Assembly: GCF_039535475.1 (NCBI RefSeq)
Contig: NZ_BAAAXG010000026.1
Span: 992,001-1,056,000, forward strand
DNA from: Streptomyces showdoensis
Lineage (GTDB): Bacteria > Actinomycetota > Actinomycetes > Streptomycetales > Streptomycetaceae
Direction: 5' to 3'
Length of the DNA: 64,000 nt
Shown here: piece by piece, positions 49,704-57,250 of the stretch
How the letters are laid out: each line of letters opens with the position of its first letter
Position numbering within the stretch: position 1 is the stretch's first letter
Made by a program: the position numbers and the translations under genes
The notes under the pieces: model-generated
Databases searched by the model: none
What the model saw: the letters and a program-made list of their open reading frames with translations, nothing else
Told to the model about the DNA's origin: nothing

Positions 49704-50116
49704 CACGCACGCGAAGCCAGTTGGCCCACGGCGTTCTCCTGCTGGACTCCCGGGGGCTGGGCAAGTACCTCTCGAACGACCCCAAGGTGGTCGGCCTGGT
49801 GCGGACCGCCCAGTCGAAGGACACACTCGTCGCCCTCAGCAACCTGACCCTGCTCGAGGCCTGGAACCCGCGGACGCGCATGGACCGATTCCGATGGGAG
49901 GTCTCCCGCCTGGAGGTCGTCCCCGTCACCGACGAGATCTCGTGGCGGGCGCTCGATCTCCTGCGCAACGCGCATCTGCACGGCCACAAGTACGCGATCG
50001 ACTCCGTCGTCGCCGCCACCGCCCTCGGCTACCCCGGCCCGAGGATCGTCGTGACCTCGGACGTCGACGACATGGTCAAGCTCTGCGGACAGCGGGTCAC
50101 GACCGTCGGGGTGTGA
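49700..50116 (+). CDS. PIN-domain toxin (VapC-like RNase)
   Basis: A 138-residue PIN-domain ribonuclease. Metal ligands are visible at Asp16 (LLLDSRGL), Glu53 (LLEAWN), Asp101 (YAIDSVVAA) and the acidic cluster Asp121-Asp124 (TSDVDD). All four positions are intact, so the toxin should be active. It is coupled to the upstream RHH antitoxin. The 3' end overlaps the convergent DUF35 gene by 20 bases. Confidence 0.87.
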   Translation: MTRTRSQLAHGVLLLDSRGLGKYLSNDPKVVGLVRTAQSKDTLVALSNLTLLEAWNPRTRMDRFRWEVSRLEVVPVTDEISWRALDLLRNAHLHGHKYAIDSVVAATALGYPGPRIVVTSDVDDMVKLCGQRVTTVGV

Positions 50117-50495
50117 ACACCGGCACCCGGACGTCGCCCTCCGGGCGGAAGGCGACGTCCAGGTCCATGCCGATGCGCAGGTCCGCCTCCGGGCAGTCGA
50201 CCACCTCGGTCATCATCCGGGGGCCCTCGGCGAGGTCGACGACCGCCGCCACGTACGGCACGCGCTCGCCGAAGGGCGGGAGGTCGTTGCGGTGGACGAC
50301 GGACCAGGTGTAGAGGGTGGCGCGGCCGCTCGCCGGGCGCCAGGCGACGGACTCGCCCCAGCAGTACGGGCAGAACTCGCGCGGGTAGTGGTGGGCGCGG
50401 TCGCAGCCGGCGCAGTGGCGGAGCAGCAGGCGGCCTTCGGCGGCGGCGTCCCAGTAGGTGCGGGTGAAGGCGTCGACATCCGGGGTGGCCGTCAT
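50097..50495 (-). CDS. DUF35 OB-fold protein with zinc ribbon
   Basis: A 132-residue acyl-CoA-associated OB-fold protein of the DUF35/ChsH2 type. The rubredoxin-like zinc ribbon is CAGC...CPYC (about 28-45), followed by the OB fold (ATLYTWSVVHRND, then VVDLAEGPRMMTEVV). In other actinobacteria such proteins partner thiolase-like or MaoC-like enzymes in steroid and acyl-CoA degradation. No such partner is adjacent, but CoA enzymes lie 2.5 kb away. Its ATG shares one base with the DoxX stop, so both form one transcript behind a CTGAC-N4-CGTCAG operator. Confidence 0.85.
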   Translation of the reverse strand: MTATPDVDAFTRTYWDAAAEGRLLLRHCAGCDRAHHYPREFCPYCWGESVAWRPASGRATLYTWSVVHRNDLPPFGERVPYVAAVVDLAEGPRMMTEVVDCPEADLRIGMDLDVAFRPEGDVRVPVFTPRRS

Positions 50496-50944
50496 CAGAA
50501 GAGTCCGATCGCGTGGTCGAGGGACCAGGTCTGCCAGGACACGGCGAAGAGGGCGACCAGGGAGATCAGCGCCATCATCGCGTTCTGCCCCTGCTCGGCC
50601 CAGTCGTGGATCATCAGGGTGAGGTACAGGAGGTTGAGGAGCAGCCCCCCGACCAGGGCGACGGGGGTGAGCAGGCCGGAGATCAGGCCGAGGCCGAGGG
50701 CGAGTTCGGCGTAGACGACGACGTACGCCATGAGCCTGGGGCGCGGGGCGACGACGGCGTCGAAGCCCTTCTTCACCGGCGGCCACTTGTGCCTGCCCGC
50801 CACGTCCGCGGCCCAGGCGATGCCCGTGCCCCGCTCGAACCAGCCCTTCTTGTCCTTGTGCCGCCAGCTCTCCAGCCACCACAGGCCGAGGCCGATACGG
50901 AGGACGGCGAGCCATTCGGCGCCCGTGAGCCAGATCGTCCGCAT
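50495..50944 (-). CDS. DoxX-family membrane protein
   Basis: A 149-residue protein with about four hydrophobic helices: LAVLRIGLGLWWLESW at the start, YVVVYAELALGLGLISGLL, VALVGGLLLNLLYLTLMI and MALISLVALFAVSW. DoxX relatives include the quinone-reducing membrane subunit of thiosulfate dehydrogenases and mycobacterial redox complexes, so a quinone- or redox-linked role is possible. It is first in a two-gene operon with the DUF35 protein, and its promoter carries one of the four shared palindromes. Confidence 0.85.
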   Translation of the reverse strand: MRTIWLTGAEWLAVLRIGLGLWWLESWRHKDKKGWFERGTGIAWAADVAGRHKWPPVKKGFDAVVAPRPRLMAYVVVYAELALGLGLISGLLTPVALVGGLLLNLLYLTLMIHDWAEQGQNAMMALISLVALFAVSWQTWSLDHAIGLF

Positions 50945-50973: not shown

Positions 50974-50988
50974 CTGACAGGCCGTCAG
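50974..50988. promoter_or_regulatory. shared palindrome, site 1 (CTGAC-N4-CGTCAG)
   Basis: CTGACAGGCCGTCAG, 30 bases before the DoxX start and 114 before the divergent FAD enzyme. One of four such sites in the window, all in promoters of this catabolic island. Confidence 0.75.
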
Positions 50989-51101
50989 TTCAGCGGATGG
51001 CGCCGGTTCTCCGCAAGACCTCTGCACGCGTGATCGATTCGCAACCGAACCCCCTCTTGACCGAGACCCATCGCGTGTACGCGTCATTACGCTCAGCGGT
51101 C

Positions 51102-52340
51102 ATGACCACCCCCCAGACCCACCCCGTCTACGTCATCGGCGGCGGCCCCGGCGGACTCGCCGTCGCCGCCACCCTGCGCGAGCAGGGCGTGCGGGCCGTC
51201 GTCCTGGAGAAGTCGGACGCCGTCGGCGCCTCCTGGCGCCGCCACTACGACCGGCTGCGGCTGCACACCACCCGCCGCCTCTCCGCGCTCCCCGGACTGA
51301 AGATCCCCCGCTCCTTCGGACGCTGGGTCGCCCGCGCGGACGTGGTGCGCTACCTGGAGAAGTACGCCGAGGTCCACGACCTGGAGATCGTGACGGGGGT
51401 CGAGGTCACCCGGATCGAGCGGGAGGAGGCCCGGGCGCGCGCGGGCGGGGACGGGGACCCGGGCGCGGGCGGCCGCAAGCGGTCGCGCAAGCGCCCGGAC
51501 GCCGACGCCGACGGGCACTGGGTGCTGCACGCGACCGGCGGGCGCCGGCTCGTCGGCAGCGCCGTGGTCGTCGCCACCGGCTACAACCACACGCCCCGGG
51601 TGCCCGACTGGCCCGGCCTGGACGCCTACGCCGGCACCCCCGGCCGCGAGTTCGTCCACGCGAGCGCCTACCGCGACCCCCGGCCGTACGAGGGCCGGGA
51701 CGTCCTCGTCGTCGGCGTCGGCAACACCGGCGCCGAGATAGCCGCGGACCTCGCGGAGGGCGGCGCCGCCCGGGTGCGGCTGGCCGTGCGCACCGCCCCG
51801 TACATCGTCCGCCGCTCCACGGCCGGCTGGCCCAGCCAGCGCACCGGCATCCTCGTGCGGCGGCTCCCGGCGGGCCTGGTGGACCGGGCCACGGGGCTGC
51901 TCGGCCGGTTCATCACGGCCGACCTCTCGGCGTACGGGCTGCCCCGCCCCGAGGGAGGCCTCTACTCCCGGGTGCGCCAGGGCGCGATCCCGGTGCAGGA
52001 CGTGGGCCTGGTCGCGGCCGTGCGGGCCGGGAAGGTGGAGCCGGTGGCCGCCGTGACCTCCTTCGACGGCGACGGGGTCGTCCTCGCCGACGGCTCCCGG
52101 ATCACTCCCGACGCGGTGGTCGCCGCCACCGGCTACGAGCGCGCCCTCGAGCCCCTGCTCGGCCACCTCGGGGTGCTCGACGAGCGCGGCCGTCCGGTGG
52201 CGCGGGGGGCGCGGTGCCCGGACGGGGTGCCGGGGCTCTACTTCACGGGGTTCACGAATCCGATCAGCGGGATGTTCCGGGAGATGGCGCTCGACGCGGA
52301 GCGGATCGCCCGGCGGATCGCCCGGCAGCGGGCCCGGTAG
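51102..52340 (+). CDS. FAD/NADPH flavin-containing monooxygenase-like protein
   Basis: A 412-residue flavoprotein. The FAD motif GGGPGG is at residues 13-18 (VYVIGGGPGGLAVAATLRE), the FMO-type linker FVHASAYRDP is near 190, and the NADPH motif GVGNTG is near 208. An ATG-type domain motif VVATGYN follows the first half, and DAVVAATGYE the second. An Arg/Lys/Gly/Asp-rich insertion (about 110-140) interrupts the first domain and differs from most relatives. Likely an N- or S-oxygenase or Baeyer-Villiger-type enzyme. It shares a divergent promoter region with the DoxX operon. Confidence 0.85.
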   Translation: MTTPQTHPVYVIGGGPGGLAVAATLREQGVRAVVLEKSDAVGASWRRHYDRLRLHTTRRLSALPGLKIPRSFGRWVARADVVRYLEKYAEVHDLEIVTGVEVTRIEREEARARAGGDGDPGAGGRKRSRKRPDADADGHWVLHATGGRRLVGSAVVVATGYNHTPRVPDWPGLDAYAGTPGREFVHASAYRDPRPYEGRDVLVVGVGNTGAEIAADLAEGGAARVRLAVRTAPYIVRRSTAGWPSQRTGILVRRLPAGLVDRATGLLGRFITADLSAYGLPRPEGGLYSRVRQGAIPVQDVGLVAAVRAGKVEPVAAVTSFDGDGVVLADGSRITPDAVVAATGYERALEPLLGHLGVLDERGRPVARGARCPDGVPGLYFTGFTNPISGMFREMALDAERIARRIARQRAR

Positions 52341-52508
52341 CGGGCCCGCCCTCGATCCCGGTAGCAGGCGCGGCGGCGCGGCGGGGCGCCAGGGGACGGA
52401 CTCGGCGGGCTCCGCGGTGCGGGAGGCGCCCCCGCGAGAGGCGCCCGACGGCACCTCCCGCACCGCGAAGATCCCCCTTCCCCACGACAGTTCGCTGCAC
52501 GGCCATTC

Positions 52509-52547
52509 CTGACTTACCGTCAGTTCTGTAATCTGACTGTGCGTCAG
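52509..52547. promoter_or_regulatory. shared palindrome, tandem sites 2 and 3 around a -10 box
   Basis: CTGACTTACCGTCAG (52509-52523) and CTGACTGTGCGTCAG (52533-52547), centres 24 bases apart. Between them is TGTAAT (52527-52532), a good -10 element. A repressor on both sites would enclose the promoter. The acyl-CoA ligase ATG is 61 bases further on. Confidence 0.8.
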
Positions 52548-52608
52548 AGAAGGGAACGGCCGGAAACAGCACACGCGGACGAGCGGACGGACGGGCGGAG
52601 CTACCACG

Positions 52609-54843
52609 ATGCTTGGATCGACTCACGGCACCTTCACCACAGACCTCCGCGCTCGCGTCGTCGCCTGCGGCGAGCAGCCCACCCGGGTCGCCGTGCACGG
52701 CGTCACCGCCGTCGAGGGCGATACGGACGTCAGCGGGCGCCCGCTGCACGCGTCCGTGCCCGAGCTCGACCGGTTCTTCCGGCCCGAGGTGGTGGCCGTC
52801 GTCGGCGCCTCCGACGCCGAGGGCCGGCCCAACACCGGGATCACCCGCCAGCTCCTCGACTGGGCCGGGCGGGTCGGGGCACGGGTGGTGCCGGTGCACC
52901 CGACCCGCACCTCGGTCTTCGGCATCGACTGCGTCGCGTCCGTCGGCGAACTCGGCGCGCTCGGCGTGAACGTCGACCTCGCCGTGCTCCTGGTGGCCGA
53001 CCCGCTGCCCGTGATCGAGCAACTGGCCGAGGCCAAGGTGCGGTTCGCCGTCGCCTTCGCGTCCGGCTTCGCCGAGACCGGCGAGGAGGGTGCCGCCGCG
53101 CAGGAGCGCCTGGCGGCCGCGGTGGGCCGCTCGGGGCTGCGGCTGCTCGGCCCCAACACCAACCTCAACGCCTTCGAGCGCTTCCGCGAGGACCTCGACG
53201 GACCCGCCGTCGCCCTCATCACCCAGTCCGGGCACCAGGGCCGGCCCGTCTTCACCATGCAGGAGCTGGGTGTCCGGCTCTCGCACTGGGCGCCCACCGG
53301 CAACGAGGCCGACCTGGAGACCGCCGACTTCCTCTCGTACTTCGCGCACCGGCCCGAGGTCGGCGCCATCGCCTGTTACGTGGAGGGGCTCAAGGACGGA
53401 CGCTCCTTCCTGCTCGCCGCCGACCAGGCCGCCCGGCGCGGGGTGCCGGTCGTCGCGGTGAAGGTGGGCCGCACGGAGGCCGGGGCCCGGATGGCCGCCT
53501 CGCACACCGGCAAGCTGACCGGGGCGGACCAGGTCGTCGACGCGGCCATGCGGCAGTTCGGGGTGATCCGGGTCGACGGGCTCGACCAGCTCCAGGACAC
53601 CGCCGCGCTGCTGGCCCGGGCCCGCAAGCCGGTCGCGGACGGGGTGGTCGTCTACTCGATCTCCGGCGGCACCGGCGCGCACTTCTCGGACCTGGCCACG
53701 GCGGCGGGGCTCAAGCTGCCCACCCTCTCCCAGGCCCGGCAGGACGAGCTGCACCAGTGGATCCCCCCGTACCTGAGCGTGGCCAACCCGGTCGACAACG
53801 GCGGGCACCCGGTGGGCGACTGGCGCGGCCGGAAGATCATCGACTCGATCCTCGCCGACCCGGAGGTGGGGGTGCTGATCTGTCCGATCACCGGCCCCTT
53901 CCCCCCGATGAGCGACAAGCTGGCGCAGGACCTGGTGGACGCGGCCGAGGCGACGGACAAGCTGGTCTGCGTGGTGTGGGGCTCGCCGGTCGGCACCGAG
54001 GAGGCCTACCGCACCACGCTGCTCGGCTCCTCGCGGGTCGCCACCTTCCGCACCTTCGGCAACTGCATCGGCGCGGTGAAGGCCTACCTCGACCACCACC
54101 GCTTCACCGCCGGCTACCGCTCCCCCTTCGACGAGGCCCCGCGCACCCCGTCCCCCTCCTTCCGCAAGGCGCAGGCCCTGATGCGGCCCGGCCACCGGCT
54201 GAGCGAGCACGCGGCGAAGCAGCTGCTGCGGGCGTACGGGATCAGGGTGCCGCGCGAGCAGCTGGTCACCAGCGCGGCGGCGGCCGTGCGGGCGGCGGGC
54301 CTGGTCGGCTACCCGGTGGTCATGAAGGCCTCGGGCGCGCAGCTGGCCCACAAGACGGAGCTGGGCCTGGTGAAGGTCGGGCTGACCTCGGCGAGCCAGA
54401 TCCGCGACACGTACCGCGAACTGACCGACATCGCCCGCTACGAGGGCATCGACCTGGACGGCGTCCTGGTCTGCCAGATGGTCGGGCGCGGGGTGGAGAT
54501 GGTGGTCGGGGTGACCCACGACTCGCTCTTCGGGCCGACGGTCACGGTCGGGCTCGGCGGCGTCCTGGTGGAGGTGCTGAACGACGCGGCGGTACGGGTG
54601 CCGCCGTTCGGCGAGCGGGAGGCCCGGGACATGCTGGGCGAACTGCGCGGCCGGGCCCTGCTCGACGGGGTGCGGGGGGCGCCGCCGGCGGACGTGGACG
54701 CGCTGGTGGAGGTGGTGCTGCGGGTGCAGCGCATGGCGCTCGAACTGGACGGCGATCTGGCCGAGTTGGACATCAACCCGCTGATGGTGCTGCCGCGGGG
54801 ACAGGGCGCGGTGGCCCTGGACGCGCTCGCGGTGTGCCGGTAG
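52609..54843 (+). CDS. NDP-forming acyl-CoA ligase (fused alpha-beta)
   Basis: A 744-residue acyl-CoA synthetase of the ADP-forming superfamily, with domains fused in one chain. In order: CoA-binding Rossmann domain (VVAVVGASDAEGRPN near 60), ligase domains with the phospho-histidine candidate in AASHTGKLTGADQV near 300, SISGGTGAHFSDLA, and a C-terminal ATP-grasp domain (YPVVMKASGAQLAHKTELGLV, ending LAELDINPLMVLP). The upstream 40 residues are unlike relatives. Bacterial members include acetate- and aromatic-acid (feruloyl-type) CoA ligases. The enoyl-CoA hydratase 21 bases downstream suggests activation of an unsaturated or aromatic acid. Confidence 0.9.
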   Translation: MLGSTHGTFTTDLRARVVACGEQPTRVAVHGVTAVEGDTDVSGRPLHASVPELDRFFRPEVVAVVGASDAEGRPNTGITRQLLDWAGRVGARVVPVHPTRTSVFGIDCVASVGELGALGVNVDLAVLLVADPLPVIEQLAEAKVRFAVAFASGFAETGEEGAAAQERLAAAVGRSGLRLLGPNTNLNAFERFREDLDGPAVALITQSGHQGRPVFTMQELGVRLSHWAPTGNEADLETADFLSYFAHRPEVGAIACYVEGLKDGRSFLLAADQAARRGVPVVAVKVGRTEAGARMAASHTGKLTGADQVVDAAMRQFGVIRVDGLDQLQDTAALLARARKPVADGVVVYSISGGTGAHFSDLATAAGLKLPTLSQARQDELHQWIPPYLSVANPVDNGGHPVGDWRGRKIIDSILADPEVGVLICPITGPFPPMSDKLAQDLVDAAEATDKLVCVVWGSPVGTEEAYRTTLLGSSRVATFRTFGNCIGAVKAYLDHHRFTAGYRSPFDEAPRTPSPSFRKAQALMRPGHRLSEHAAKQLLRAYGIRVPREQLVTSAAAAVRAAGLVGYPVVMKASGAQLAHKTELGLVKVGLTSASQIRDTYRELTDIARYEGIDLDGVLVCQMVGRGVEMVVGVTHDSLFGPTVTVGLGGVLVEVLNDAAVRVPPFGEREARDMLGELRGRALLDGVRGAPPADVDALVEVVLRVQRMALELDGDLAELDINPLMVLPRGQGAVALDALAVCR

Positions 54844-54864
54844 GCGGCAGGCGAAGGGGAACCC

Positions 54865-55665
54865 ATGTCGGAGGACGTCCTGCACGCCGTCGAGAACGGC
54901 GTCGCGTGGATCACGCTCAACCGGCCCGAGGCGATGAACGCGGTCACCTGGGACCAGCGGGAGCGGATCATCGCGCTCCTCGCGGACGCCTCGGCCGACC
55001 CGGAGGTCCGGGCGGTGGTGATCACGGCGACCGGGCGCGGTTTCTGCGCGGGCGCGGACCTGCGGGGAGGCCCGCCGGCCTCCCCGGCCGACGGGGAGCG
55101 GGTGGCCGGGGACGTGGCCCGGATGATCCGCCGGGGCGCCCAGCGCTTCGTCGGGGCGGTGCTGGACTGCGAGAAGCCGGTGATCGCGGCGGTGAACGGG
55201 ACGGCGGCGGGGATCGGGGCGCACCTGGCCTTCGCGTGCGACCTGGTGCTGGCGGCGGAGCCGGCGAAGTTCGTGGAGGTGTTCGTGCGGCGCGGGATCG
55301 TGCCGGACGGGGGCGGGGCGTATCTGCTGCCGCGACTGGTGGGCCCGCAGCGGGCGAAGGAGCTGATGTTCTTCGGCGACGCGGTGCCGGCGGCGGAGGC
55401 GCGGGCGATGGGCCTGGTGAACCGGGTGGTGCCGGCGGAGGAGCTGGAGAAGACCGCCCGCGAGTGGGCGGAGCGGCTGGCCCAGGGCCCGACCCGGGCC
55501 CTGGCCCTCACCAAGCAGCTGGTGAACGCGTCCCTGGACACCGACCGGGCGTCCGCCTTCACGGCGGAGGCGAACGCCCAGGAGCTGTGCATGACGACGC
55601 GGGACGCGCAGGAGGGGGTGGCGGCGTTCGTGGAACGCCGGACCCCTACGTACGGGGGGCGCTGA
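54865..55665 (+). CDS. enoyl-CoA hydratase/isomerase family protein
   Basis: Crotonase-fold enzyme of 266 residues. The oxyanion-hole segments are GRGFCAGADLRGG near 57 and VNGTAAGIGAHLAFACDL near 110. Candidate acid/base residues are the glutamate in KFVEVFVRRG and the aspartate in VPDGGGAYLLPRLVG; this PDGG version is typical of PaaG/aromatic or branched-substrate members rather than fatty-acid hydratases. AAGGGGA lies four bases before the ATG. It follows the acyl-CoA ligase and should act on its product. Confidence 0.92.
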   Translation: MSEDVLHAVENGVAWITLNRPEAMNAVTWDQRERIIALLADASADPEVRAVVITATGRGFCAGADLRGGPPASPADGERVAGDVARMIRRGAQRFVGAVLDCEKPVIAAVNGTAAGIGAHLAFACDLVLAAEPAKFVEVFVRRGIVPDGGGAYLLPRLVGPQRAKELMFFGDAVPAAEARAMGLVNRVVPAEELEKTAREWAERLAQGPTRALALTKQLVNASLDTDRASAFTAEANAQELCMTTRDAQEGVAAFVERRTPTYGGR

Positions 55666-55681
55666 GGGGGGCTGGCGGCCC

Positions 55682-56065
55682 CTACGCCACTGCGCCCGCC
55701 ACGCCCGTACGCCCGTCCGGCACGCCCGCGACGGTGACGATCACCTGACCGCGCACGCCCTCGCCGAGCACGCCGGCGAGGGCGTCGGTCGTAGCGGCGA
55801 CGAGCCGTGCGGGGGCGTCGGGGACCTCCGGGAGGTGGTAGGCGGCCTCGCGCATGCTGAGCGTGACGAGCGGGCCGTGGGTTTCGGTCGGGACGCCGCC
55901 GAGGCCCCGGCGGTGCTGGGGGACGCCGATCAGGTCGACGCCGACGAGACGGGCGAAGCCGTCGCCGAAGACGGCGCCGACGGCGTCGGTGAGGGCGCGG
56001 ATCAGAGGGGCTTCGACGGTGCCGTCGAGGGTCTCCTCGCGGATGTGCACGGTGAAGTGGGGCAT
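55682..56065 (-). CDS. tautomerase-superfamily protein
   Basis: A 127-residue protein beginning MPHFTVHI, so Pro1 becomes the catalytic N-terminus after Met removal. It is about twice the size of a 4-oxalocrotonate tautomerase and resembles CHMI/MSAD-like members (a second half with LVTLSMREAAYHLP). Such enzymes shift double bonds in ring-cleavage products or dehalogenate acrylates. It is divergent from a MarR gene, and a clear palindrome between them suggests direct control. Confidence 0.8.
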   Translation of the reverse strand: MPHFTVHIREETLDGTVEAPLIRALTDAVGAVFGDGFARLVGVDLIGVPQHRRGLGGVPTETHGPLVTLSMREAAYHLPEVPDAPARLVAATTDALAGVLGEGVRGQVIVTVAGVPDGRTGVAGAVA

Positions 56066-56114
56066 AGCGGACCGACCTCCGTACGATGAGGGGGTTTAGC
56101 TTTGCCAGTAAAAC

Positions 56115-56132
56115 ACCTTTGTACTCAAAGGT
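56115..56132. promoter_or_regulatory. MarR-type operator
   Basis: Perfect inverted repeat ACCTTTG-TACT-CAAAGGT in unusually AT-rich DNA between the divergent tautomerase and MarR genes. It is 22 bases before the MarR start and 50 before the tautomerase start. It differs from the CTGAC-N4-CGTCAG palindrome, so two regulators operate in this island. Confidence 0.7.
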
Positions 56133-56154
56133 AAATGAGGGAGGCCGCCGCCGC

Positions 56155-56601
56155 ATGTCCGGGAACGCCGACGACACCGTCCGCGAGCTGCTGCTGCTCA
56201 TGCCCCGCCTGATCGGCCGGGCCAAGCGGATCCCCGTCCCCGAACCGCTCCGCCCCCTCGACCTGGCCCCGCGCCACCTCTCCCTCCTCGCCCTCCTGCT
56301 CTTCGACGGGGACATGTCCGTCAACGAGCTCGCCGCCCGCCTGGAGGTCGCACCGACCACGGTCAGCCTGCTCGTGGGCGACCTGAGCCGGAAGGGCGTG
56401 CTGGAGCGGCGCGAGGACGAGCGGGACCGGCGCCGCCGGATCGTCCGGATCGCCGAGGCCCACGCACCGGCCATCACTGCCTGGCTGGCCCCGGGCGCCG
56501 CCGCCTGGCGCACGGCCCTCGCCCCACTGACGGCGGAGCAGCGGCGCCTGTTCGTGGACACCCTGCTCGCCTACGAGACGGCCGTGGGCGAGGCCGACTG
56601 A
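56155..56601 (+). CDS. MarR-family regulator
   Basis: A 148-residue winged-helix regulator: LAPRHLSLLALLLFDGDMSVNELAARLEV, recognition helix TTVSLLVGDLSRKGVLERR, wing DERDRRRRIVRI. The ATG has GAGGGAGG ten bases ahead; 23 codons of upstream in-frame sequence cross the operator and are unlikely to be translated. MarR proteins often respond to phenolic acids or their CoA esters, which fits the neighbouring CoA ligase and hydratase. It presumably represses itself and the tautomerase. Confidence 0.9.
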   Translation: MSGNADDTVRELLLLMPRLIGRAKRIPVPEPLRPLDLAPRHLSLLALLLFDGDMSVNELAARLEVAPTTVSLLVGDLSRKGVLERREDERDRRRRIVRIAEAHAPAITAWLAPGAAAWRTALAPLTAEQRRLFVDTLLAYETAVGEAD

Positions 56602-56618
56602 GCCGCGGGGCTTCTCAT

Positions 56619-56633
56619 CTGACGCTCCGTCAG
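56619..56633. promoter_or_regulatory. shared palindrome, site 4 (CTGAC-N4-CGTCAG)
   Basis: CTGACGCTCCGTCAG, 14 bases before the flavin reductase start codon. Same arms and same fifth-base C as sites 1-3. Its position over the start region suggests repression. Confidence 0.75.
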
Positions 56634-56647
56634 CTTCACTGGTCGGC

Positions 56648-57250
56648 ATGATGGGACACGCTGGGATGGCGGCCACCGCCGTCCGATACCTCAGGTCGGC
56701 CGGGGCGCCCACGGCCGTGGAACCCCTGCCCCGCCCCGCGCTGCGCGCCGTACGGGACGACGAGCGGCTGCCGGTCGACCCCGCCGAGTTCCGGCGCGTG
56801 CTCGGGCACTTCGCGAGCGGGGTCACGATCGTGACGGCCCTGGACGCCGAAGGCCCGGCGGGCTTCGCCTGCCAGTCCTTCGCCTCGCTCTCCCTCGACC
56901 CGCCGCTGATCGCCTTCATGGTCGCCCGCACCTCCACGACCTGGCCCCGGATCGCCCGCGCGGGCACCTTCTGCGTCAACATCCTCGGCGCCGACCAGGG
57001 CGGACTGTGCCGTTCCTTCGCGGTGAGCGGCGCCGACAAGTTCGCGGGCGTGGAGTGGACCCCGGCCCCGAGCACCGGCTCCCCCCGCCTCCCGGACGCC
57101 CCGGCCTGGCTCGACTGCACGATCACGACGGTCCACACGGGCGGCGACCACCTCATCGTGGTGGGCCGCGTGGACTCCCTCGGCGCCACGGACGGCACGG
57201 CGGACCCGCTGCTGTTCCACCGGGGGCGGTTCGGGCGGTTCAGCGAGTAG
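56648..57250 (+). CDS. HsaB-like flavin reductase
   Basis: A 200-residue flavin reductase of the two-component monooxygenase type. Typical segments are FRRVLGHFASGVTIVTA, GFACQSFASLSLDPPLIAFM, FCVNILGADQ and the closing PLLFHRGRFG; these closely resemble HsaB, which supplies reduced FMN to a steroid-ring hydroxylase in Mycobacterium. The first 35 residues are an unusual Arg/Ala/Pro-rich extension, and a start at a later codon is possible. No oxygenase partner is adjacent. Palindrome site 4 puts it in the same regulon as the CoA ligase. Confidence 0.88.
   Translation: MMGHAGMAATAVRYLRSAGAPTAVEPLPRPALRAVRDDERLPVDPAEFRRVLGHFASGVTIVTALDAEGPAGFACQSFASLSLDPPLIAFMVARTSTTWPRIARAGTFCVNILGADQGGLCRSFAVSGADKFAGVEWTPAPSTGSPRLPDAPAWLDCTITTVHTGGDHLIVVGRVDSLGATDGTADPLLFHRGRFGRFSE

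Follow-up and report, generated by a model that had tools for sequence, protein, structure and literature searches.

A 15-bp palindrome as the probable operator of a PF19352 TetR repressor of dispersed CoA-thioester catabolic operons in Streptomyces

Background

TetR proteins of the KstR2 type, which contain the TetR_C_24 domain, control the catabolism of ring acids in response to CoA thioesters. In Mycobacterium, the TetR protein KstR is autoregulated and recognizes a single palindrome upstream of numerous dispersed operons for lipid degradation, and the KstR box overlaps the -10 region, as described in its characterization (PMC1995591). Here we analyze a 15-bp palindrome, CTGAC-N5-GTCAG, in a 64,000-nucleotide stretch of the Streptomyces showdoensis genome (contig NZ_BAAAXG010000026.1, positions 992,001 to 1,056,000; referred to as the window), and propose that it is probably the operator of an autoregulated TetR repressor of the PF19352 type that acts on dispersed CoA-thioester catabolic operons. 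TetR-controlled regulons for CoA-thioester catabolism are a known kind of system; the present member appears to be undescribed in the open-access literature searched. That search (regulon databases and subscription papers lay outside it) found no description of the exact motif, of its variants or of PF19352 (TetR_C_38), and among the titles and abstracts listed for broader queries none treats this motif or regulator. The motif given for Rv0158 (PMC10501769) differs from the CTGAC palindrome.

A palindrome in promoter regions throughout the genome

Within the window, exact copies of CTGACNNNNCGTCAG are confined to 50974, 52509, 52533 and 56619 (five strand-matches at four distinct places), and 100 shuffles of the window contained a mean of 0.06 copies, with the observed count reached in none. 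An initial annotation of this DNA had counted four copies, expected fewer than 0.1 per 64 kb by chance and placed all four in promoter regions; our scans agree, each site being intergenic and 5' of a called start. When up to two mismatches are allowed, the window contains no excess of the palindrome (25 matches versus 36 expected).

The same annotation considered the motif to be local and limited to four copies, and these two labels do not hold. The 8.5-Mb genome contains 44 strand-matches at 31 distinct exact places (reversed-pattern control, 0), so the regulon is not local, and the motif also occurs in every one of the 150 same-genus genomes searched (2-44 forward matches, against 0-4 in the control), in Frankiaceae and in some Acidimicrobiia-type records. 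When gene starts are predicted with a home-made caller based on codon usage, 25 of the 31 places fall outside genes and no more than 200 bp 5' of a called start (in one case, L031, a few bases reach into the end of a called frame). Upstream non-coding DNA of this kind makes up 9.1% of the bases in a 224-kb sample, which as a background is rich in site clusters, and the corresponding binomial P is 4e-21. Apart from those at 52509 and 52533, most sites are 3-115 bp 5' of a start codon. Three of the 31 places are inside called genes (L033, L037 and L038), and the motif is thus not scattered within genes genome-wide.

A profile built from the 28 sites that are not inside genes has a consensus of about ATCTGACGnnnCGTCAGAT, in which the search pattern dictates the arms and the five-base centre is nearly free. 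In three regions of the source genome (243 kb), this profile has 22 matches above 15 bits, none in called genes and all 22 no more than 300 bp from a start that faces them. A relaxed pattern finds 131 places in the source genome versus 14 in the control. The palindrome is real and looks regulatory rather than a product of chance.

Conservation of two promoters within Streptomyces

The palindromes at 52509 and 52533 precede an acyl-CoA synthetase gene and that at 56619 a flavin reductase gene. Homologues of the synthetase are present in 62 of 81 same-genus genomes, as are homologues of the reductase, and for each gene we compared the promoters of the 30 best-matching loci. The synthetase promoter contains a site in all 30, at the position of the putative proximal operator CTGACTGTGCGTCAG (52533..52547), and in 28 this site is paired, at the 24-bp spacing seen in the window, with the putative distal operator CTGACTTACCGTCAG (52509..52523); the exceptions are a pair 35 bp apart (L257) and a single site (L240). 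DNA downstream in the same loci has nine matches above 14 bits in 105 kb. The putative operator of the reductase gene, CTGACGCTCCGTCAG (56619..56633), has a counterpart in 28 of the 30 loci, mostly 32-33 bp before the start, and no upstream site is found in L269 and L275. The two promoters compared are thus conserved in relatives.

In the alignment of the 28 paired promoters, where the constancy of the arms is partly forced by the aligning pattern, the linker TTCNGTAAY is kept (mean 0.94) and the central bases of the two sites differ among loci (mean column identities of 0.61 and 0.64). This conserved stretch makes it more likely that the -10 element is TAAYCT, which would be TAATCT at 52529..52534 on the plus strand and enter the proximal site, than TGTAAT, as initially annotated; the earlier idea that the paired copies surround a -10 element is retained. 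The C reported at the tenth base is no more than preferred: the five central bases vary, and T is found there at some same-genus synthetase sites.

Same-genus genomes without the synthetase have a median of 22 motif matches (n=18) versus 46 in those with it (n=59; Mann-Whitney p 1.6e-5), a comparison in which relatedness is uncontrolled and to which the synthetase promoter itself contributes sites. Exceptions to the low counts include G043, which lacks the synthetase and has 89 matches.

A PF19352 TetR protein as the candidate regulator

The initial annotation assigned the sites to one TetR-family regulator encoded outside the window. A by-eye comparison of the lists of strict sites and TetR genes in the source genome found no TetR gene adjoining a site, and the search for the regulator therefore turned to other lineages. 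An island in genome G180 contains a TetR gene with a site 45 bp upstream, and its homologue in the source genome is 50% identical. This homologue, the likely candidate, is a 215-aa protein encoded outside the window on the minus strand (G000:C26:2213316-2213963), with TetR_N (28.4 bits, above the cut-off) and PF19352 (E 7e-74) domains. Its gene is flanked by sites at 2211.3-2211.5 kb and at 2221.4 kb, beside the largest site cluster.

The palindrome is present at the start or in the promoter of this TetR gene in all 30 loci read. Five loci from the Frankiaceae-type family f14 score 19.5-22.0 bits, one from f12 16.4 bits (within the called start), four from f16 16.0-18.9 bits and 20 from Streptomyces 10.3-12.0 bits; the ten sites outside Streptomyces (16-22 bits) were absent from the training set of the profile. 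For background, 180 kb of related DNA contain 23 matches above 14 bits and 33 above 9 bits, real sites included. In the 20 same-genus loci, AAGCTGACGGCATGACAGGAC contains the start codon (17 identical, three with one change), and this start block is 99% conserved versus 85-95% in adjacent coding blocks, a modest contrast. A shared putative operator is thus found at dispersed promoters including that of the candidate regulator, in a weak form at the same-genus start.

In addition, six distant relatives of the TetR protein (L222-L227, 29-33% identity) all have a site above 18 bits within 3.3 kb, although L222, L223 and L225 share an identical site sequence and hence are not independent. Four of these records are from Acidimicrobiaceae, Ferrithrix, Acidimicrobiales or Ilumatobacteraceae and two from Actinomycetes/Actinobacteria. 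L224 contains three sites, one of which, at 32 bits, heads an acyl-CoA dehydrogenase operon with the TetR gene in fourth position; L222 contains two sites and has the same acyl-CoA dehydrogenase enzyme behind a site. Weak TetR matches in other phyla (L228 and L229) have no site. Across 22 TetR sequences, S52 and A54-F60 are invariant, and they lie in or beside the recognition helix (residues 53-59) predicted from a structural model of the 96%-identical homologue P0001, which has a TetR fold and a predicted local distance difference test score of 91.

Homologues of the TetR protein occur in 39 genomes of a 40-genome panel, hand-picked to contain motif-rich and motif-poor members. G181, the sole genome examined from families without the motif, has neither a TetR match at E 1e-8 nor a site. 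Among the six genomes with the synthetase that were seen in both panels, the synthetase gene is 14-17 kb from the TetR gene in three (G005, G006 and G008) and on a different contig in two; the sixth is the source genome.

The genome also encodes a homologue of KstR (PDB KstR, E 8e-41) inside the cluster C region, the second cluster (C26:3315868-3316491, equivalent to L023:10866-11492), and the targets of the CTGAC sites resemble KstR targets. Assignment of the sites to this protein is nevertheless highly improbable and would require it to bind both motifs. The box T..AAC..GTT..A is present at 29 of 29 KstR-like loci and a CTGAC site above 14 bits at 0 of 29, and the homologue has no match at E 1e-20 in G043, which shares the highest motif count. 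These two findings, the box that it carries and the lack of a match in G043, led us to reject it as the reader of the CTGAC site; that it also occurs in motif-poor genomes played no part, since the PF19352 TetR protein behaves likewise. The canonical KstR-type box upstream of the homologue, kept in all 29 same-genus loci, suggests that a separate small KstR regulon exists in the genome.

Genes behind the sites

The first putative operator of the window, CTGACAGGCCGTCAG (50974..50988), is shared by divergent genes. It lies 30 bp upstream of a gene for a DoxX-type small protein (50495..50944, minus strand; PF07681, E 4e-5, barely above the cut-off), which is followed by a gene for an OB-fold/zinc ribbon protein of the ChsH2 type (50097..50495, minus strand; PF01796 and PF12172), and 113-114 bp upstream of a gene for an FMO-like FAD monooxygenase (51102..52340, plus strand; PF13738 and PF00743). 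The paired sites precede the gene for a 744-aa protein (52609..54843, plus strand), initially annotated as a CoA ligase, whose CoA_binding_2, Succ_CoA_lig and ATP-grasp_5 domains refine the type to an ADP-forming, ATP-grasp acyl-CoA synthetase; an enoyl-CoA hydratase/isomerase gene (54865..55665, plus strand; PF00378) follows after a 21-bp gap and presumably belongs to the same operon. The last site precedes a flavin reductase gene (56666..57250, plus strand; PF01613). The earlier label 'HsaB-like' is a loose one for this protein, which scores 198 bits against a cut-off of 230 in the NCBIfam HsaB model NF045630.

The window also contains a MarR gene (start at 56155), for which a different operator had been predicted. 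A separate, perfect palindrome, ACCTTTG-TACT-CAAAGGT, at 56115-56132, about 23 bp 5' of the MarR start, is probably the operator of this gene.

Outside the window, site-bearing genes are found at C26:2210-2253 kb and C26:3303-3348 kb, among other places. The neighbouring genes named by Pfam scans encode AMP-forming CoA ligases, acyl-CoA dehydrogenases (one of them a fusion), thiolases with OB-fold partners, hydratases of the ECH and MaoC types, short-chain dehydrogenases, amidohydrolases, a ferredoxin reductase, a P450 and a metallo-beta-lactamase-fold protein. Four luciferase-like monooxygenases also stand behind sites, one of which (L026:15753) passes the F420-dependent TIGR03619 model. The sites thus accompany acyl-CoA and oxygenation genes, in line with the initial annotation, and the target set, as judged from domain content, resembles the CoA-dependent catabolism of bulky acids, for example sterol side chains. 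A site (L116:6143-6157) 31 bp 5' of a cholesterol oxidase gene (PF09129) in the f16 genome G426 points in the same direction. A weaker site (19.8 bits, G000:C26:3303276) is found between a divergent P450 and thiolase. A gene for a SARP-type activator (BTAD, NB-ARC and TPR domains; L026:9900-13007) starts 209 bp from a site in the main cluster, and a cascade is possible.

The mainly catabolic character of these neighbours also bears on whether the sites could be boxes of BldD, the XRE-family developmental regulator. BldD boxes have the geometry TnAC-N5-GTnA with a C-W-G centre, and the distance between half-sites is the same as in the palindrome; the CTGAC sites have g-W-c at the centre, and a BldD box would leave the TetR-linked sites unexplained. 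We thus regard an assignment to BldD as scarcely credible.

Distribution beyond the genus

In a class-wide set of 296 genomes, TCTGACNNNNNGTCAGA is found in 70, and these are concentrated in the genus itself (22/31) and in families f14 (6/8) and f13 (5/5). In f14, which comprises metagenome-assembled genomes of Frankiaceae, the sites precede the same gene families as in the source genome (about 43-71% identity), and in some Acidimicrobiia-type records the motif stands beside related genes. The 194-kb contig C11 of G180 has 15 profile sites within 1.7-107.6 kb and none further along, 14 of them between called genes and one touching a called start. Related soil actinobacteria, Frankiaceae among them, carry what seems to be the same switch.

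The f13 genome G217 contains 56 exact copies of TCTGACNNNNNGTCAGA in 5.1 Mb. In the 15 loci read (L074-L088), the palindrome is between convergent gene ends in four and inside open frames in four; as a result, a giant regulon in G217 was dropped and this genome is not counted as support. The convergent-end copies look like a terminator or repeat. Such loci, together with two places at gene ends in the source genome (L029 and L039), are what one would expect if the palindrome were a non-regulatory repeat or an RNA stem-loop such as a terminator. For the sites as a whole this is most unlikely, given the 25 places upstream of starts and the pairs of sites that, in 28 of 30 loci from relatives, lie around a -10-like element.

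Weighing the assignment to the PF19352 TetR protein

Several observations weigh against the PF19352 TetR protein as the reader of the palindrome. Six of the 31 exact places are not in promoters: besides those inside genes and at gene ends, one has no called genes around it (L036). Some neighbours, such as peptide-transporter genes (L040) and a DUF2690 pair found with the SARP-type activator (L026), suit no catabolic regulon; other misfits, a TauE and an ABC protein, are on the far side of shared promoters. The TetR gene occurs in each of the 15 motif-poor same-genus genomes of the panel and so does not follow motif number. The same-genus TetR sites are weak (10.3-12.0 bits versus 16-31 for most regulon sites), have one altered arm and overlap coding sequence in conserved DNA, and the 20 of them represent one inherited site rather than independent cases. 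In the source genome, 1.17 Mb separate the synthetase gene from the TetR gene. Finally, large Streptomyces plasmids encode paralogues of the TetR protein (29 records matched); the five read (L290-L294, 39-49% identity; three beside ligA and HU genes) keep the stretch TSPATFYQYF and have no site above 9 bits in about 8.5 kb, so that this stretch alone is no proof of specificity.

These points leave some room for another regulator, with the PF19352 TetR gene merely one of its targets. The occurrence of the gene in motif-poor genomes and its imperfect same-genus site would fit such an arrangement, as would two other regulators found behind a site in single genomes, a KstR2-like TetR (L109) and a GntR-FCD gene (L124). 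Of the regulators encountered, the PF19352 TetR protein alone had a site at its start wherever its locus was read (three families, plus six distant records with linked sites), in a genome-wide search limited to TetR families, and the L109 protein, having no match in the source genome at E 1e-10, was rejected. We consider a different regulator unlikely. As a separate observation, the CTGAC site of L109 (L109:7385-7399, genome G362) is 108 bp 5' of the KstR2-like gene, and cross-talk is possible.

Proposed mechanism and comparison with known systems

From the computed site positions, promoter enrichment, promoter conservation, sites at the start of the regulator and partial synteny, we infer binding and repression, and also a ligand and a substrate class. 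A dimer of the PF19352 TetR protein would bind each palindrome over a promoter or start region. At the synthetase operon, two sites 24 bp apart would bracket the presumptive core promoter, with the proximal one overlapping TAAYCT, and in Streptomyces the site that covers the start codon of the TetR gene would provide autoregulation. The location of sites over the -10 element, near starts and on the TetR start codon fits steric repression by TetR dimers, as for KstR. The repressor would silence dispersed operons for CoA activation, dehydrogenation, hydration, thiolase or retro-aldol cleavage, and flavin- or F420-dependent oxygenation, the substrates being perhaps bulky (cyclic, branched, sterol- or terpenoid-like) acids. 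Release would most likely be by a pathway acid or its CoA thioester, because of the targets and of structural matches that include acyl-CoA-responsive TetR proteins (DesT, SaFadR and FadR).

With less confidence than we have in the operator assignment, we favour a broader picture in which this is an undescribed system apart from KstR, common to Actinomycetes and Acidimicrobiia-type lineages, with a CoA-thioester-sensing PF19352 TetR protein in control of a dispersed flavin/F420-oxygenase pathway for sterol-, terpenoid- or alicyclic-type acids, and in which the main operon cluster is broken up in this strain. If so, one TetR gene and one 15-bp site would give access to dozens of catabolic genes whose annotation is loose, in Streptomyces and uncultured Frankiaceae, and caution would be needed in assigning the ChsH2- or HsaB-like genes of these genomes to KstR.

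The closest solved fold to the P0001 model is that of EthR from Mycobacterium tuberculosis (TM-score 0.76-0.81 by query), and a flavin monooxygenase is among the targets of both. Identity over the fold is 16-18% and the sequence match is weak (E about 5e-5) and mainly N-terminal, which does not indicate orthology; regulon size and operator also differ. DesT, FadR of Bacillus halodurans and SaFadR, which are acyl-CoA-responsive, share the TetR fold and the control of acyl-CoA genes, and are more distant structural matches of P0001 than EthR (TM-score 0.65-0.69, 14-16% identity). As to KstR2-type proteins, the source genome has no match to the TetR_C_24 protein of G362, whose gene adjoins a CTGAC site. 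With respect to KstR, no KstR chain is among the 10 PDB sequence matches of the proposed TetR protein, and whereas the KstR box is a 14-bp palindrome with an even centre, TnnAACnnGTTnnA (PMC1995591), the present sites have the form CTGAC-N5-GTCAG and accompany the proposed TetR gene, the KstR boxes being located at the separate KstR homologue. In its overall design, the system nevertheless resembles that of KstR (PMC1995591), with an autoregulated TetR protein, a single palindrome at dispersed operons, a box over the -10 region, and ChsH2-type, acyl-CoA dehydrogenase and thiolase genes among the targets.

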